Below, piece after piece: positions 10,573 through 17,501 of a stretch of DNA of 64,000 nucleotides. The position numbers and the translations under genes are program-made. This DNA comes from Desulfovibrio sp. A2 (GTDB lineage: Bacteria; Desulfobacterota; Desulfovibrionia; Desulfovibrionales; Desulfovibrionaceae). Location: NCBI RefSeq assembly GCF_000226255.1, contig NZ_AGFG01000064.1:62001-126000 (forward strand), in the 5' to 3' direction. The notes beneath the pieces were generated by a model. The model was not told where the DNA came from. It saw nothing but the letters and a program-made list of their open reading frames with translations, and ran no database searches. How positions within the stretch are numbered: the stretch's first letter is position 1; every line of letters begins with the position of its first letter.

Positions 10573-11328
10573 CTACGAGAAGACGAACTGCTCGGTCTCC
10601 ACGCCGCCGGTGTCCACGCCGAAGGCGCGCAGTTCGGCCAGCACGTGTTCCTGCATGGGGCCGGGGCCGCACAGGTAGAACGACGAGGTGGCCGACTGCA
10701 CGTGGCGGCCCAGCATCTCGCGCGAAAGGTGCCCCTTTTCGAAGTGCACGCCGGGCAGTTCCGGGTCGGCGTAGTGGTGGGGGCTGGTCTCGCGCGTGAG
10801 CACGTGCACCACGGTCAGGTCCAGTCGCCGGGTCATGCCTTCCAGTTCCTCGGCGGCAAAGGCGTCGCCGTAGGTCTTGTTGGACCAGAACAGCACCACC
10901 CGGTTGGACGCGCCAGCCTGGTCGAAGCTGCGCAGCACGCTGAGGAACGGCGTGATGCCCACTCCGCCCGCGATCATCACGATCTGCTCCTGCCGCTCGA
11001 TGTCGCGGCAGAACACCCCGTAGGGCCCGGCGCAATGAACTTCATCGCCGTCGCGCAGGCTCGGCACCAGTTCCGACGTGAAGCGCCCCTTGCCCCGTAT
11101 GGTCAGGCGCACGGTCTCGCCCGGCGCGGCCGCGATGGTGAAAGGGTGGGCCGCGCTCCAGCCGTCCTCTTCCATCACCCGCAGCGTGGCGAACTGGCCC
11201 GGCCGGAAATTCTGGAAGCGTTCGTCGTCGCCCGTGTCGATGTACACGGAGGTGGTGTTGTCGTCCTCGCGCACGGTGCGCAGGATGCGGGCCTTGCGGC
11301 CCTTGAGGGTGCTGGTATCGTCGCTCAT
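10573..11328 (-). CDS. Ferredoxin-NADP reductase-like FAD/NAD(P)-binding oxidoreductase
   Basis: This 251-residue flavoprotein has the FNR-superfamily order. An FAD-binding barrel (about 10-105) contains FRPGQFATLRV and the AHPFTIAAAPGE segment in place of the RxYS motif. A nucleotide-binding domain (about 110-245) follows, with IVMIAGGVGITPFLSVLR, VVLFWSNKT, FYLCGPGPMQEHVLAEL and the C-terminal VETEQFVFS. It should move electrons between NAD(P)H and a small carrier or partner subunit. A CAGGAGC site precedes the ATG. It is transcribed in the same direction as the sigma-54 activator gene upstream, across a 216-bp gap with an 11-C run. Confidence 0.9.
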   Translation of the reverse strand: MSDDTSTLKGRKARILRTVREDDNTTSVYIDTGDDERFQNFRPGQFATLRVMEEDGWSAAHPFTIAAAPGETVRLTIRGKGRFTSELVPSLRDGDEVHCAGPYGVFCRDIERQEQIVMIAGGVGITPFLSVLRSFDQAGASNRVVLFWSNKTYGDAFAAEELEGMTRRLDLTVVHVLTRETSPHHYADPELPGVHFEKGHLSREMLGRHVQSATSSFYLCGPGPMQEHVLAELRAFGVDTGGVETEQFVFS

Positions 11329-11544: not shown

Positions 11545-13317
11545 CTAGCGCGGGCGCAGCCCCAGCGTCTTCATGCGCGATTGCAGGGTGGTGGGCGGCA
11601 GCCCCAGCAGTTCCGCCGCGCCGCCGGGGCCGTGCACCCGTCCGCCCGCCGCCGCCAGCGCCCGTTCGATGTTGACGCGCTGCAATTCGCGCCACTGTGC
11701 TTCCGGAATGATGGCCTGGTCGTCGGTTTCCCCCGCGTTCACGGCGGCATCGGGACCGTGCGGCATGCCGGTCGCCGGGGAGCGGGACTGCGTGTAGCCA
11801 TCTCGCGTATCGTCCTGCGGGGCCATGGGGCCCGTGACGGTGCCCTCGGGCGGCAGGTCCAGCACCAGCCTGCCCCCCTCGGCCATGATCACCCCGCGTT
11901 CGATGACGTTCTGCAATTCGCGCACGTTGCCCGGCCAGGGATAGGCCTGCATCTCGGCCATCTGGCGATGGGAGACGCGCGGTTCCGGCAGGTTCAGGCG
12001 GCGGCACGAGGCGCGCACGAAGTGCCGGGCCAGCAGGGGAATGTCCTCGCGTCGGGCGCGCAGGGGCGGCAGGGCCACGGGAAACACGCTGAGCCGGAAG
12101 AACAGGTCCTGCCGGAAGCGCCCGTGCTCCACGTCGGCCCGCAGGTCGCGGTTGGTGGCGGCGATGATGCGCACGTCTACGCTGCGGCTGCGTTCCTCGC
12201 CCACCCGCTCGAACACGCCCTCCTGCAGTACCCGCAGCAGTTTGCCCTGCAATTCCAGTGGGATTTCGCCCACCTCGTCCAGGAACAGGGTGCCGCCGTC
12301 GGCCAGTTGAAAGCGCCCCACGCGGTCGCGCAGGGCCCCGGTGAACGCGCCCTTCACATGGCCGAAGAACTCGCTTTCGAACAGTTCGCGCGGGATGGCG
12401 GAGCAGTTCACCCGCACCAGCGGCGCGGCCGCGCGCTGGCTGCGGTCGTGGATGGCCTGGGCCACCAGTTCCTTGCCGGTGCCCGATTCGCCCAGCAGCA
12501 GCACGGTGGCGTCGGTGGGGGCCACCATGTCCACCTGCTCCAGCGCGCGGCGCAGGGGCGGGCTGTCGCCCACTATGGCGTGCGGGGCGCGGGCTCGGCG
12601 CACCTCGCCGCGCAGGTGTTCGTTCTCCAGTTCCAGGGCGCGGCGCAGGTGCTGGATTTCTTCGAAGGAGCGGGCGTTGACCACGGCGGCGGACAGCGAG
12701 TCCGCGAATATCTTGTGCATCTTGCGGTGCAGCAGCATCAGGTCGGCCAGCACGCCGCGCATGGGCCGGTCGTAGAACACGGCCATGACCCCGATCATGT
12801 TGCCCTTGAACTGCAACGGGTAGGCGGCGTAGGCATGGATGGATTCGTCCACGGCCCAGGCCGGGCGGGTCCATTCCTCGGGCGAGGCCCCCCACGCCGG
12901 TTCGCCCCGCGCGGCCACCATGCCCACCAGCGGCTCCGTGAGCGGCACGAGGGCGTACGTGCCCTCGGCGTGCCACCACTCGCGCACCGGGGTCACGGTG
13001 TGCCCGGCCACGGTCATCAGGCGCAGCACGGGGTCGCCGTCTCCCTCGCCCCCTCCGGTGGTGGATGGCGCATCCACGAACCAGATGCACCCGCACATGA
13101 CGTGGGTGCCCCGGTTGACGCGGTGGGTCAGTTCCAGCAGGCCTTCCACCGTACGTTCCTGGGCCACGTTGAGCATCATGTCCAGAAACGGGCTGATGTC
13201 GAACTGCTGCAATACGGAGTGGGGCAGCGTGGGTTCCGGCGCGGAGCCGTGCGGGGCCTCCGTGGCGGACGTGGCGGGCGTGCCGAGTGGCGCTTCAAAG
13301 GAGGGGAGGTTTTTCAT
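11545..13317 (-). CDS. Sigma-54-dependent transcriptional activator, GAF-AAA+-Fis architecture
   Basis: A 590-residue bacterial enhancer-binding protein. The N-terminal 200 residues look like a GAF sensor domain ([31 protein letters not shown], then [14 protein letters not shown]), joined by a short coiled coil ([17 protein letters not shown]) to the AAA+ domain. The AAA+ domain has Walker A GESGTGKE near residue 275, the sigma-54 contact loop GAFTGA near 323, Walker [10 protein letters not shown] and [10 protein letters not shown]. The C-terminus is a Fis-type helix-turn-helix ending [20 protein letters not shown]. The ATG at 13317 is preferred to a TTG 33 bases upstream. The layout is NorR/FhlA-like; the ligand is unknown. 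Three palindromes and a divergent sigma-54 promoter lie just upstream. Confidence 0.93.
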
Positions 13318-13360
13318 GGGCGGCTCGTGGGTGAGGCAATTGACGGACAAGGATGCGCTT

Positions 13361-13388
13361 ACGATATATCGTTACGAAATTTCGTCAA
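13361..13388 (-). promoter_or_regulatory. Candidate sigma-70 promoter of the sigma-54 activator gene
   Basis: On the minus strand TTGACG (13388-13383) and TATCGT (13366-13361) are 16 bp apart, upstream of the activator start at 13317. Two of the three palindromes (13361-13372 and 13374-13385) overlap it, which would allow self-repression. The -10 is only a fair match. Confidence 0.4.
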
Positions 13389-13402
13389 CAACGAAATTTC
13401 GT
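13361..13402. promoter_or_regulatory. Three 12-bp palindromes, probable enhancer sites for the sigma-54 activator
   Basis: ACGATATATCGT (13361-13372), ACGAAATTTCGT (13374-13385) and ACGAAATTTCGT (13391-13402) are each perfect palindromes of the form ACGAWAWTWTCGT-like, centred 13 and 17 bp apart. The latter two also form a longer perfect inverted repeat (15-base arms, 13370-13384 and 13392-13406). They stand about 70-110 bp before the -24 element of the divergent sigma-54 promoter, which is the usual position for an upstream activating sequence. Confidence 0.7.
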
Positions 13403-13470
13403 AACGACCCTGTGCGTGCCCATGACCGGGAATCCCTTGCCATTCGCCGACGGGAGTCGTGTCACCTGTC

Positions 13471-13486
13471 TGGCACGGGTTGTGCT
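13471..13486 (+). promoter_or_regulatory. Sigma-54 (-24/-12) promoter
   Basis: TGGCACGGGTTGTGCT matches the consensus TGGCACGNNNNTTGCW at every defined position except one T. The -24 GG and -12 GC have the required spacing. The predicted transcription start is near 13497. It faces away from the activator gene whose candidate binding sites lie upstream, so this is probably the activator's own target promoter. Confidence 0.7.
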
Positions 13487-13496
13487 ATTGTCTGCC

Positions 13497-13612
13497 ACGA
13501 AAGTTCGGTGCTGCCGTTCTTTTCGGTGCCGAGTCCGTGCGTTCCCTCGCGCGCGGGCTTATGATTCAGTCGCTTCATTCGACAAAACCCCGGTTTCCCC
13601 TACCGGGGTTTT
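13497..13612 (+). ncRNA. Candidate sigma-54-driven small RNA (about 115 nt)
   Basis: The interval from the predicted start of the sigma-54 promoter to the terminator-like hairpin at 13584-13612 has no convincing coding sequence: the only ATG (13561) has no ribosome binding site, and its frame runs through the hairpin. A short regulatory RNA is one explanation; another is a leader that reads through to the HDOD gene at 13832. No RNA family is recognised. Confidence 0.35.
13584..13612 (+). terminator. Hairpin with T tail between the sigma-54 promoter and the HDOD gene
   Basis: AAAACCCCGGT (13584-13594) pairs perfectly with ACCGGGGTTTT (13602-13612) around a 7-base loop. The seven GC-rich pairs followed by TTTT form a terminator, and the flanking A/T symmetry makes it potentially bidirectional. 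Confidence 0.6.
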
Positions 13613-13831
13613 GGCATTTCTGGGGGGGGCGTGACCGGCCGCTTCATCGTGCGCCGCAATGACTGCTGCGGTGCTGGTGCTCTCTGCGCGCTGCCTGGCT
13701 GGCGGCGGGCGCCGACCACATGCCTCCATCGTGCCGGGCAGGGGCGGTGTTTGCCTTCGCGGGGATTTGTCGTAAGAGGAAAACGTCAGGCGGTATCCTC
13801 TTGACCAATATTCATCAATGCGGGGGCGCCG

Positions 13832-14926
13832 GTGTCGCAGGCAATGGGGCTGGGAATGCAGGGCGGTTGCGGCCGCGATGCGCAGGATATGGCCGAGGAG
13901 GCGGTGGCGCGGCGGTTCCGGCTTTCGGGCGCGGCGCATCCGCTGCTGTTGCTGCTGCGGCGCAGGGCCGTGGATTCGCTGGCGCGGGCGCTGCGCGACG
14001 GCGCTTCCTGCGAGCCGCCCGCACCGCGCATGCCGTTGCCGCCGGAAGTGACGCATGAGGCCAATGCCGGTCTGGTGCCCGGCGACATCGACGGATTGGC
14101 CGAGCGCGCCCGCCTGCCCGCGCTGCCGCAGGTGTTCCTGGAACTGCAGCACGCCATGGAGCGCGAGGAACCCTCGTACGAGGAACTGGCGGCCATCATC
14201 TCCAAGGACCCCCGGCTGGCCGCCTCGCTGCTGCGGCTGGTGAACGGCCCGCTGTTCGGCTTTCGCGCCCCCGTGGAAACGGTGACCCGCGCGGTGGCGG
14301 CGGCTGGCACCCGTCGGGTGACCTCGCTGGCCCTCGGCACCTTCGTGCTGGGGCTGTTCCGCGAGCGGCCGCCCCATGTGGTCAACCTGCACGACTTCTG
14401 GCTGCATTCGGTGGCCACGGCGCTCATGGCCCAGGCCCTGGCGGCGCGGCTGGGCCGCGACGATCCGGAGCGCTACTTCGTGGCCGGGCTGCTGCACGAC
14501 ATGGGCTGGCTGGCCATCTGCGCCGTTTGGCCCGCCGGGGCGGAACGGGTGCTGGACCGCTGCCGCGACCTCGGGCAGACGCTGACCGAGGCGGAACGGG
14601 CGGAGTTGGGCATGACCCATGGCGACCTGGGGGCCGCCATGCTGCGGCGCTGGAATCTGCCCGTCGTGCTGCTGGATGCGGTGCGCCATCACCATGAGCC
14701 GTCCGAGGCCCCGGCCAGCGACGAGGCGCTGCTGGTGCACCTGGCCGACGAGGCGGTGAAGGCCTTCGGCATCGGCGGCACCGGCGACGACTGCGTGCAG
14801 CCGCTGGACGCCGACGCGGTGGCCGCGCGCAACATTTCGGCGCACGACCTGGACGCCGCCTGCGACGCGCTGCTGGAAGGTGTGGACGAGATGTACGCGG
14901 TGCTCGGGGCGGGCGCGCGGGGGTAG
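13832..14926 (+). CDS. HDOD domain-containing protein
   Basis: A 364-residue cytoplasmic protein whose middle (about 95-290) is an HDOD domain, a relative of HD phosphohydrolases found in bacterial signalling proteins. Recognisable segments are LPALPQVFLELQHAM, ELAAIISKDPRLAASLLRLVN, SLALGTFVLGLF, DFWLHSVATALMAQAL and YFVAGLLHDMGWLAI. HDOD proteins usually lack the full metal site, although an HD pair is visible in LLHDMG. The GTG at 13832 is used; ATG 13844 is possible, and neither has a strong ribosome binding site. It could be read from the sigma-54 promoter at 13471 if the intervening hairpin is not fully efficient. The output is unknown. Confidence 0.88.
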   Translation: MSQAMGLGMQGGCGRDAQDMAEEAVARRFRLSGAAHPLLLLLRRRAVDSLARALRDGASCEPPAPRMPLPPEVTHEANAGLVPGDIDGLAERARLPALPQVFLELQHAMEREEPSYEELAAIISKDPRLAASLLRLVNGPLFGFRAPVETVTRAVAAAGTRRVTSLALGTFVLGLFRERPPHVVNLHDFWLHSVATALMAQALAARLGRDDPERYFVAGLLHDMGWLAICAVWPAGAERVLDRCRDLGQTLTEAERAELGMTHGDLGAAMLRRWNLPVVLLDAVRHHHEPSEAPASDEALLVHLADEAVKAFGIGGTGDDCVQPLDADAVAARNISAHDLDAACDALLEGVDEMYAVLGAGARG

Positions 14927-15093: not shown

Positions 15094-15132
15094 CTGATCC
15101 GCCCCGGCTTTTCGGGGCGGATCAGCTTTTTT
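15094..15132 (+). terminator. Rho-independent terminator after the HDOD gene
   Basis: A perfect 13-bp stem (15094-15106 with 15113-15125), loop GCTTTT, then C and six T residues. Its right arm contains the stop codon of the convergent CotH-like gene, so the two transcription units meet here. Confidence 0.88.
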
Positions 15133-16807
15133 CGCAGATTGCCCGGATGCGCATGGTCGAGCGCACCGGCAGATCCAACCGGGGGGCGTCGTGGCGCGCG
15201 CCGTCCACCTCCCAGTGCAGGAACCTGCCGCAGCCTTCCTGCGGCGGGGCCACGGCAACTCGCTGCCCGTCGAAGTAGCGCCCGGTGTATTCGGTGTAGC
15301 CGGGCTGCCCGTCAATGCGCACCGGACCGGGCGCGCTGACCCGCACCTGGTGCCAGCGCGGCGCGCCAAGGTCGCGCACCGTCTCGTCCAGCACTTCCTC
15401 CGCCCGGCGGGCCAGCAACCGCCGTGCAAGGTCCTGATCGAACATGGTGTTCCCCACCTTTTGGTCCAGGGCCTCGTACCGCGTGAACAGCCGTTCGCGG
15501 GCCGCGTCGTTCAGGGTGTGGTTCAGCGCGTCGGTGACGTAGCGCAGGAAATATTCCCTGAATTCCGACGATTCTCCCCATAGCCGCAGGAACAGGCGCA
15601 TGCGCACCGCCTTCTTTTCGTCCATGGCGAACTTCCAGCCGGGGCGCTTGGCCAGCGGCCTATCGGGCGAAAGGAACTGGAAGGCCTGGTCGAGGTCCCA
15701 CGCGATGTTGGTCCAGCGGGGGCTGGCGGCGGTCTTGTCCATCAGGAAGGCGCCCTGGTCCCAGTCGTTTTCGCCCAGGTACACGGCGCCGAAGATGATG
15801 GCGCACATGCTGCGCAGGTCCATGCGCCGCTCGGCCTGCTGCATGGTCAGGGGGGCGGGCATCAGGCGAATCCACAGGTACAGTTCGCGCAGGGCGGCGA
15901 ACTCCGCCCGGTCGTTGCCCTTGCGGATGGAGTAGAGCAGGAAGTTGCCGTGCCCCAGCCTGCGCTTCCAGTGGGCGGCGGCGATGTGTTCGGAAAGCAG
16001 GGAAAGCCCCATGGGTTCGCCGTTCACCGTGAAGAGCACGGGCTGGTACAGGGGCGTTTCCGCCCCCAGCATGCCCATGATGTCCAGCCCCAGCATGTTG
16101 TTGAACCCGGGGCTGGTCGTCTTTTCCTTGCGCAGCACGATGCGCTTCAGCTTGCCCTCGGCCCCGGGAAAGAACAGGTCGGCGGGCTGGGCGCTGCTGC
16201 CGTAGGAATCCCGGAAGTACAGGCGGTAGGCGATGCCGAGTTCGCGCGAGCCGCCGCCGTGCAGGCGCAGCCCCGCTCCCGCTGCCAGGCGCTCCTGGCC
16301 CTCGCGGTAGTAGACCATGGCCGCCGGGCGCTCCCATTCCATGCCGCGCTCCTCGGAATTGGCGACGATGCCGGTTTCCGGGTCGTGCAGGTTGGCGCTG
16401 TCGGTGCGGATGGCGAACACGGGCCAGCCGCTGGCCACCAGGGTATTGTCGGCGTCGCGGCGGGCCTGTTCCAGCAGTTCGGCGGTGCGGGCCGTGTTTT
16501 CCGGGGCCACCGCGTGCACGTCGGGCAGGCCCAGTTCGGCCAGCAGGTGCCGTTTGCGGGGCGACCCCAGAGAATCCTTCTTGGTGGCCATGTCCAGCGA
16601 CACGGCACGGTACTGCCGGATGGCGGGTGAACGCTCCAGCAGCAACCCCGCGCAGAGCAGCGCGGCCAGGAACAGCGCCGCCCCCCACAATGGGATGCGG
16701 GGTGCGTGGGGAATGCGTGGCCTGGGCGGAATGGCCGACCCGGTCGGCGGCGTTGCGCTGCCCCCCGGCATCGGCGCGCTACTGGGCCGCGTGGTCGAAA
16801 TAGACAT
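15122..16807 (-). CDS. CotH kinase family protein, membrane-anchored
   Basis: The protein (561 residues from ATG 16807) has one N-terminal membrane helix (WGAALFLAALLCAGLLLERS) after a Pro-rich head, then a large CotH-like domain. CotH proteins are atypical kinases that phosphorylate proteins, first found on spore coats. CotH-like marks include FAIRTDSANLHDPETGI at the start, LRLHGGGSRELGIAYRLYFRD, KLKRIVLRKE, EPMGLSLLSEHI, the NDWDQGAFLM segment and TNIAWDLDQAF with an Asp pair fitting the metal site. The start is uncertain (16771 is possible); the chosen one overlaps the DUF4956 gene by 29 bp. It is the last gene of a VTC-DUF4956-CotH trio, a recurring bacterial association. The target is unknown; action at the cell surface is inferred from topology. 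Confidence 0.85.
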   Translation of the reverse strand: MSISTTRPSSAPMPGGSATPPTGSAIPPRPRIPHAPRIPLWGAALFLAALLCAGLLLERSPAIRQYRAVSLDMATKKDSLGSPRKRHLLAELGLPDVHAVAPENTARTAELLEQARRDADNTLVASGWPVFAIRTDSANLHDPETGIVANSEERGMEWERPAAMVYYREGQERLAAGAGLRLHGGGSRELGIAYRLYFRDSYGSSAQPADLFFPGAEGKLKRIVLRKEKTTSPGFNNMLGLDIMGMLGAETPLYQPVLFTVNGEPMGLSLLSEHIAAAHWKRRLGHGNFLLYSIRKGNDRAEFAALRELYLWIRLMPAPLTMQQAERRMDLRSMCAIIFGAVYLGENDWDQGAFLMDKTAASPRWTNIAWDLDQAFQFLSPDRPLAKRPGWKFAMDEKKAVRMRLFLRLWGESSEFREYFLRYVTDALNHTLNDAARERLFTRYEALDQKVGNTMFDQDLARRLLARRAEEVLDETVRDLGAPRWHQVRVSAPGPVRIDGQPGYTEYTGRYFDGQRVAVAPPQEGCGRFLHWEVDGARHDAPRLDLPVRSTMRIRAICEKS

Positions 16808-17501
16808 TGATTTCCGCGCTGGGGGCAAGCCCGCCTGCAAGCGTGCTCAGGCGTTGCACCAGGTCTTCGTCGGAGCGGGCGAAGGTGGCGATGATGGTGC
16901 GCCGTTCACCGTCGCCGGAGATGCTGGCGATGGTCAGTTCCGGCAGGGTCTGACGCAGGGCGGGCAGCATGGCGGCGTCGGCCTCGCGTTCCGAGGCCGG
17001 GTAGGCGATGACCGCCGTACCGCTGCGCCGCGCCACGCGGCCGCGCCGGAAGCGGTGCACCAGCACCAGCCCCACGGTGACCACGCCCAGGAACAGCGCC
17101 AGGATGACGATGTTCAGGGTGGCGCAGCAGATGGCCGTGGCGATGTTCACCATGATGAAGCCCACTTCTTCCGGTTCCTTGATGGGAGTACGGAAACGGA
17201 TGATGGACAGCGCGCCCAGAAGGCCCAGCGACAGTGGCAGAGAGAACTGCACGCAGATGAAGATGGCGGTGATGGACGGCCCCAGCAGCAGGAAGCTGCG
17301 GTGCACCAGGCTGCCCGTGCCCCGGCTTTCGTAGAAGCGGGAATACAGCAGGGCGGTGTACTGCGAGGTCAGCAGGGAGATGAGCAGGGCCAGCAGGAAG
17401 GTGCCCGCGCCGATGTCCGCCGCCTGCTTCGAGCCGAAGCCGGTTACGGAAACCAGCGCCTGGTAGGCGCCGCCGAGAACGTCGAAGAGCGATTCAACCA
17501 T
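16779..17501 (-). CDS. DUF4956 family membrane protein
   Basis: A 240-residue protein from ATG 17501 (AAGG upstream). The first 150 residues hold about four membrane helices, with the family core SLPLSLGLLGALSIIRFRTPIKEPEEVGFIMVNIATAICCATLN; the last 80 residues form a soluble alpha/beta domain. DUF4956 has no proven function, but its genes are repeatedly next to VTC-domain polyphosphate polymerase and CotH genes, as here. A role as membrane partner or channel for the neighbouring VTC protein is a guess from context. The gene overlaps the CotH gene and follows the VTC gene by 84 bp. Confidence 0.88.
   Translation of the reverse strand: MVESLFDVLGGAYQALVSVTGFGSKQAADIGAGTFLLALLISLLTSQYTALLYSRFYESRGTGSLVHRSFLLLGPSITAIFICVQFSLPLSLGLLGALSIIRFRTPIKEPEEVGFIMVNIATAICCATLNIVILALFLGVVTVGLVLVHRFRRGRVARRSGTAVIAYPASEREADAAMLPALRQTLPELTIASISGDGERRTIIATFARSDEDLVQRLSTLAGGLAPSAEINVYFDHAAQ

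Follow-up and report, generated by a model that had tools for sequence, protein, structure and literature searches.

The DNA analysed here (G000:C21:62001-126000 of a 4.15-Mb assembly; the whole stretch of 64,000 nt is called the window) encodes a one-component sigma-54 activator (bEBP) that, according to our reading of the sequence, drives synthesis of a ~121-nt RNA from a divergent sigma-54 promoter; this RNA would pair in trans with one FadL mRNA and block its translation, a proposal to which we assign a probability of roughly 0.7. In the proposed mechanism, a ligand would be sensed by the GAF-fold domain of the activator, which would bind palindromes 80–110 bp upstream of the divergent promoter at 13471-13486 and drive transcription from it. 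The predicted product ends in the hairpin at 13583-13613. Its linker would pair in trans with the start codon region of fadL (AUGAAGCGAC...), the terminator loop with the Shine-Dalgarno sequence and stem-loop 2 possibly with an upstream site in the leader, and this pairing would block translation of the mRNA for one FadL/OMPP1-type outer-membrane protein. Coordinates are collected in Table 1.

Table 1. Predicted elements of the activator–RNA locus (window coordinates)
Feature	Position	Strand	Evidence or remark
One-component sigma-54 activator (bEBP)	11545..13317	-	Translation, Pfam, AlphaFold2 model, Foldseek
Upstream activator site 1, 12-bp palindrome ACGATATATCGT	13361..13372	.	Putative; 110 bp 5' of promoter box
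Sigma-70-like promoter match	13361..13388	-	Overlaps palindromes, faces activator gene; 1 found vs 0.1 expected
Upstream activator site 2, ACGAAATTTCGT	13374..13385	.	Putative; at -97
Upstream activator site 3, ACGAAATTTCGT	13391..13402	.	Putative; at -80
Sigma-54 promoter TGGCACG-N4-GTGCT	13471..13486	+	Conservation in 18 genomes
Small RNA, ~121 nt	13497..13619	+	Predicted; start inferred from promoter spacing and onset of conservation
Stem-loop 2	13533..13558	+	Loop UCCCUC 13543-13548, complementary to FadL leader site
Linker TGATTCAGTCGCTTCATT, invariant	13562..13579	+	Complementary to FadL start codon region
Stem-loop 3 / terminator	13583..13613	+	Loop TTCCCCT 13595-13601, complementary to FadL ribosome-binding site

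The locus and the genomes compared

The comparison set comprised 18 RNA-bearing genomes, eight from Nitratidesulfovibrio and ten from its sister group. According to the likeness of the RNA and its neighbourhood, the ten were split into six Halodesulfovibrio-type genomes (G063, G084, G111, G122, G142, G150) and four D. subterraneus-like genomes (G028, G100, G133, G158); of these four, only the activator of G100 was seen to match the D. subterraneus protein. G004 is 75% complete, has an assembly gap at the locus and was omitted from some counts, and the locus of G158 is divided among several contigs.

On re-reading of the sequence, all three palindromes as well as promoter and hairpin proved to lie where the preliminary description had placed them. 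The promoter, described there as near-consensus with one mismatch, reads TGGCACGGGTTGTGCT and indeed deviates from TGGCACGNNNNTTGCW at a single position. The gene on the opposite strand, taken for the activator, was confirmed as such by the Sigma54_activat and AAA lid domains and the GAFTGA motif, and the downstream gene at 13832-14926 (+), taken for an HDOD gene, is HDOD by Pfam. That description had also proposed a comparison with relatives as a check, and the promoter, the palindromes and the RNA are conserved there. As for its interpretation, comparison supports the activator, the palindromes, the promoter and the RNA as one conserved unit; its other suggestion, that the transcript might be a leader for the HDOD gene, is not supported (see below).

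The upstream sites and the promoter

The palindromes exceed chance: ACGAAATTTCGT with up to 2 mismatches has 7 matches in the window versus 0.60 expected, and none of 100 shuffles reached 7. Site 1 lies at -107 to -110 in Nitratidesulfovibrio (G004 has its assembly gap here) and in three D. subterraneus-like genomes, and is unmatched in the Halodesulfovibrio-type genomes. A script placed the promoter in 16 genomes with an intact site region, and in 15 of them sites 2 and 3 lie 97 and 80 bp (to within 3 bp) upstream of the promoter box; in the 16th, G005, site 3 carries one base change, was missed by the regular expression and was recovered by the pair search. The spacing between sites is retained in G158, where they stand 13 bp farther from the promoter (-123, -110 and -93). 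Searched for as a pair (two copies of CGAAANWTCGT, up to 2 mismatches, spacing as here), sites 2 and 3 occur at this locus and nowhere else in all 18 genomes. At 3 mismatches extra matches appear (one in G000, one in G158 and two in G122), together with one more in G004 that is the same locus across the masked gap. The neighbouring activator would bind these palindromes. Autoregulation of the activator is also possible, because the sites sit just 5' of its gene, beneath the sigma-70-like match.

Taken alone, the sigma-54 promoter match is within chance, as the relaxed pattern with up to 1 mismatch has 6 matches in the window versus 5.4 expected. It is credible because it is conserved in every genome of the set: a GG-N10-GC box precedes the RNA in 18/18, in a TGGCAC-N5-TTGC context with 1–2 mismatches to the consensus (the promoter of G158, read directly, is TGGCATGGTCTGTGCT). 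Transcription of the RNA from it would depend on sigma-54.

The activator and its sensor domain

The activator consists of an N-terminal GAF-fold domain, an AAA+ domain with GAFTGA and a C-terminal Fis-type HTH, and thus combines the features that define a bEBP (PF00158 AAA+, GAFTGA, HTH). The Pfam score of PF00158 is 236 bits, while HTH_8, with 21.4 bits, is slightly below the cut-off of 22. Near-full-length matches with E <= 1e-184 were found in exactly the 18 RNA genomes when 199 of the 288 genomes of the family were searched, and the best match in the remainder of those 199 has an E-value of 5e-131. The activators of the ten non-Nitratidesulfovibrio genomes are 53–60% identical to that of the window; for G004, one of the 18, the match is a 167-residue fragment with 82% identity. 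A tblastn search of plasmids returned two distant activators, and a contig scan for relatives returned at least 80 loci, with two Halodesulfovibrio records and no Nitratidesulfovibrio record among the matches listed.

The AlphaFold2 model of the GAF-fold region (residues 34-218) has a pLDDT of 87.5. Foldseek matched it to generic GAF domains, with no ligand clue among the 50 matches listed; the modelled fold suggests that the domain senses a small ligand. We considered and rejected NorR, a sensor of NO: the top NCBIfam match, NF003451, scores 370 bits, below its cut-off of 476, and spans residues 159-483 only. No invariant cysteine was found in the GAF domain in an alignment of 33 rows. A multi-cysteine motif is present in this domain (window 12664-13218, -) in most of the more distant relatives aligned, and the RNA-linked lineage lacks it.

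The small RNA

The interval is matched in all eight Nitratidesulfovibrio genomes. Mean pairwise identity over seven of them (G004 omitted for its assembly gap) is 0.95 for the RNA (111 of 126 columns invariant), 0.96 for the promoter and 0.92 for the palindromes; for the rest of the same interval it is 0.45 before the palindromes, 0.61 in the spacer, 0.51 just past the promoter, 0.49 beyond the terminator and 0.36, the lowest value, from there up to HDOD. In the ten other genomes the activator is again accompanied by the palindromes, the sigma-54 promoter and the RNA. The 18-mer TGATTCAGTCGCTTCATT of the linker has exactly one copy in each of the 18 genomes, and the remaining 270 genomes of the family have none. 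A covariance model built from nine sequences and run with strict filters, which may miss weak matches, recovered the same 18 when 348 genomes of the order were searched. On this comparative evidence the activator, palindromes, promoter and RNA form one conserved, co-inherited unit.

All five RNAs tested fold better than each of 200 shuffles (z -5.3 to -7.2). In the terminator hairpin, a stem of 12 bp without a mismatch (13583-13594/13602-13613) encloses a loop of 7 nt; the T run 3' of it is weak, and a simple terminator scan made no call. Of the pair cells in the model-fitted alignment (18 sequences, 13 distinct), which leans towards the model, 97% are standard. Seven pairs show two-sided changes, all of them in the terminator stem; the changes in stem-loop 2 are one-sided only. 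In the fold model, part of the linker is itself paired: GUCG in the two Nitratidesulfovibrio RNAs, UGA in the one of Halodesulfovibrio type that was examined. No Rfam family reached its gathering score for the RNA, the window yielding two tRNAs only, and at E<=1 five relatives gave three sub-gathering matches. The comparison thus finds a promoter and a terminator of its own, independence of the flanks and conservation as RNA, the properties of a trans-acting sRNA. Hfq (PF17209) was not found in the genome of the window, in a search whose control was positive in 5 of 14 named genomes. The pairing proposed here probably proceeds without Hfq, because none was found in the genome.

Complementarity to the start of a FadL mRNA

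We searched 17 of the 18 genomes (G004 omitted) for the linker complement TGAAGCGACTGAAT with up to 1 mismatch. Each of the seven Nitratidesulfovibrio genomes has one place beyond the RNA gene, and in all seven this place is where one and the same gene begins, ...AGGGGAGATCC-ATGAAGCGACTGAAA...; the ten other genomes have scattered places, none at FadL by coordinates. In the genome of the window, the start of this gene is the sole place besides the RNA gene where the 14-nt complement, with 1 mismatch allowed, is found. The gene encodes a FadL/OMPP1 protein (PF03349, 247 bits for the genome's own protein versus a cut-off of 29.7). Of the 18 genomes, 17 yielded an ortholog; the matches of the 75%-complete G004 include none. 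In all 17, the linker and the start codon region of the gene are complementary over 14 nt (Nitratidesulfovibrio) or 10–11 nt (elsewhere), with GUCGCUUCAU as the RNA segment that forms the counterpart to the fadL start.

All 17 orthologs begin with ATGAAGCGAC after a GGGG or GAGGG Shine-Dalgarno sequence; 16 of these starts were chosen by a rule blind to the pattern, and that of G150 was located via the pattern. The G150 gene appears as two overlapping matches (G150:C10:65247-66469), either through an assembly error or as a broken gene. Positions +1 to +10 are invariant in 17/17 orthologs, and of the next 50 positions 4 are invariant. Arg3 is encoded by CGA in all 17, a codon that accounts for 2/95 and 5/113 of the other arginine codons of FadL targets and for 14/240 of those in five window genes. 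ATGAAGCGAC is found at or near the start in 0/24 other FadL-like matches of the RNA-bearing genomes and in 0/26 FadL genes from 23 of 45 RNA-less genomes, which were picked across genera out of 270 (L319, one of the 26, is broken and has no start of its own).

The real linker reaches -20.6 kcal/mol, and none of 1000 shuffled linkers was equally low. Energies for nine genomes outside Nitratidesulfovibrio range from -16.4 to -19.5; control values are -12.5 on average and -19.4 at the lowest for 101 mechanical window ORFs, and -7.7 to -18.3 for FadL genes of RNA-less genomes. Single linker energies outside Nitratidesulfovibrio thus overlap the tails of the controls and are unexceptional. The pattern AGGGG-N3-10-ATGAAGCGAC alone is unspecific, being present in 16/18 RNA-bearing and 15/270 RNA-less genomes. 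In 15 of the 16 it stands at FadL and in G111 only at a 56-codon frame, while G063 and G004 have none; of the 15 RNA-less genomes 14 were read, and no FadL was recognized by eye in any of these. A further pattern for start sites, applied to two genomes, hit 3 places other than FadL. Comparison of genomes supports the complementarity between the RNA and FadL.

A different reading accepts the sigma-54 RNA as real and regards the complementarity to FadL as coincidental or minor, the main targets being other mRNAs reached through the C-rich loops. Such loops would suit many Shine-Dalgarno sequences, and as the FadL targets group in a single clade (16 rows, support 92/89), shared descent accounts for part of the conserved start. 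We nevertheless consider this reading unlikely, given the invariant 10-nt island with its rare CGA codon, the absence of the start pattern from both sets of control genes and the restriction of the 14-nt complement to the FadL start and the RNA gene in the genome of the window.

Further contacts and the direction of the effect

The terminator loop UCCCCU, taken from the genome of the window and applied to all orthologs, fits the FadL Shine-Dalgarno sequence in 17/17, with 5 to 9 pairs including wobbles, and the order of linker and terminator loop suits one antiparallel complex with the FadL start. The loop of stem-loop 2 fits a candidate site in the leader, 140–204 nt upstream of the FadL start, in 17/17, and in each of three groups this fit beats 100 of 100 shuffled leaders. 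The Nitratidesulfovibrio loop gives -24.0 with leaders of its own group versus -18.5 and -15.2 with those of the others; the reverse swap shows no clear preference (-19.8 versus -20.7 and -19.7), the other two groups having one common loop. Within Nitratidesulfovibrio, conservation is unusually high over about 250 nt 5' of FadL (L226 1250-1500, G000:C83), where further regulatory elements of the leader may lie.

The candidate leader site at -140 to -204 would also be compatible with an RNA that raises FadL expression, e.g. by opening the leader or by protecting the mRNA. However, the linker and the terminator loop together would cover both the start codon and the Shine-Dalgarno sequence, which normally stops translation, and we regard activation as improbable; the position of the complementarity argues for a block of FadL translation as the direction of the effect. 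Translational repression of FadL by the RNA admits a more far-reaching version, which we offer tentatively: a circuit of one sensor, one RNA and essentially one target, in which the whole sigma-54 regulon of the bEBP would be a single Hfq-independent RNA that clamps one FadL mRNA at the leader, the Shine-Dalgarno sequence and the start codon, closing hydrophobic uptake when the sensed compound appears.

Leader and peptide readings

It is very improbable that the HDOD gene at 13832 is controlled by this transcript as its 5' leader. HDOD does follow the RNA on the same strand in 12/18 genomes (the eight Nitratidesulfovibrio and the four D. subterraneus-like ones), but in the six Halodesulfovibrio-type genomes the ~3.5 kb fetched downstream contain no HDOD match and the next gene is convergent, which refutes a leader as the general function across the 18 genomes and argues for a free small RNA. 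Moreover, the terminator hairpin is conserved with compensatory changes, and the stretch past it is unconserved.

Equally hard to credit is a conserved small peptide (MIQSLH...), which we reject on account of frameshifts, as the T run past the linker varies by single bases. Its frame ATG ATT CAG TCG CTT CAT can be read in the RNAs of Nitratidesulfovibrio and of the Halodesulfovibrio type; in the latter, however, it ends at a stop 7 codons on, TTG replaces ATG in the D. subterraneus-like RNAs, no Shine-Dalgarno sequence was seen by eye at a suitable distance, and the changes in the terminator are compensatory.

Relation to known systems

To our knowledge, a target has been assigned to few of the small RNAs found in sulfate reducers. 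For the RNA described here, the activator, its sites and a concrete candidate pairing to the mRNA of an outer-membrane channel can all be named, in a genome in which no Hfq was found, and the RNA would offer a defined system for the study of Hfq-free small-RNA regulation and envelope sensing in sulfate reducers.

Enterobacterial sRNAs of the MicA/RybB type pair near the starts of outer-membrane-protein mRNAs and need sigma-E and Hfq; pairing near such a start is the shared element, whereas here the promoter is of the sigma-54 type and no Hfq was found. Sigma-54 bEBPs that drive a small regulatory RNA, as proposed here, are exemplified by GlrR-GlmY and by the Vibrio fischeri system of LuxO, SypG and Qrr1. 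These differ in that the activators are response regulators with wider roles, the RNAs are linked to Hfq or RapZ, and the targets are other ones. Sigma-54 activation of the quorum regulatory RNA in V. fischeri is described in PMC10162802. According to PMC4132741, LhrC of Listeria monocytogenes does not require Hfq, is induced by envelope stress, and uses CU-rich sites to bind a surface-protein mRNA and impede its translation. These sites resemble the C-rich loops of our RNA, and both RNAs are apparently Hfq-free; on the other hand, as far as descriptions rather than sequences can be compared, LhrC has five copies under the two-component system LisRK, in contrast to the sigma-54 activator here. 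A sigma-54 activator of Desulfovibrio with an sRNA target, DVU0679 with Dv_sRNA2, appears in PMC3333781, where the function of the sRNA is called unknown; DVU0679 is a two-component regulator and a different gene from the activator of the window.

The closest counterpart is DVU2359 of D. vulgaris Hildenborough, which Kazakov et al. 2015 (PMC4641369) present as a one-component bEBP with an exact GAFTGA, divergent from a sigma-54 promoter whose predicted target is listed as 'ncRNA upstream of DVU2357'. Orthologs in other Desulfovibrionales likewise adjoin sigma-54 promoters, and among the six divergent one-component bEBPs of Table 1 of that paper DVU2359 alone has an ncRNA target. It is like the activator of the window in type, in its divergent promoter and in the nature of its predicted target; architecture and position fit. 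An HDOD homolog of N. vulgaris was found at 52%; the 120 proteins listed as matches include no activator under the name N. vulgaris. The two loci are probably the same system, and because of the DVU2359 entry the regulator and its ncRNA have probably already been published as a prediction. Neither the accessible part of PMC4641369 nor the literature listings yielded a sequence, structure or target of the DVU2359-linked ncRNA. Searches for the locus tags returned only that paper and one unrelated table, and those on D. vulgaris sRNAs and on Desulfovibrio FadL nothing relevant among the matches listed. What is new here, as judged from sequence comparison, is the likely FadL target of the RNA.

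Other genes of the neighbourhood

A lone FAD/NAD reductase, nearest to the reductase half of flavohemoprotein (101 bits, cut-off 432), is encoded at 10573-11328 (-) of the window. It adjoins the activator in six Nitratidesulfovibrio relatives and in G100, G133 and G158, and was not found in the examined flanks of G028 and of the Halodesulfovibrio-type loci. Downstream of HDOD, the window contains a gene for a protein of the CotH kinase family (15122-16840, -). In two Halodesulfovibrio loci (L044, L045) the activator and the RNA adjoin thiE/thiM-like genes, as assigned by eye; thiE- and thiM-type domains are encoded near the activator in the window too, and their presence in both groups supports orthology of the locus.
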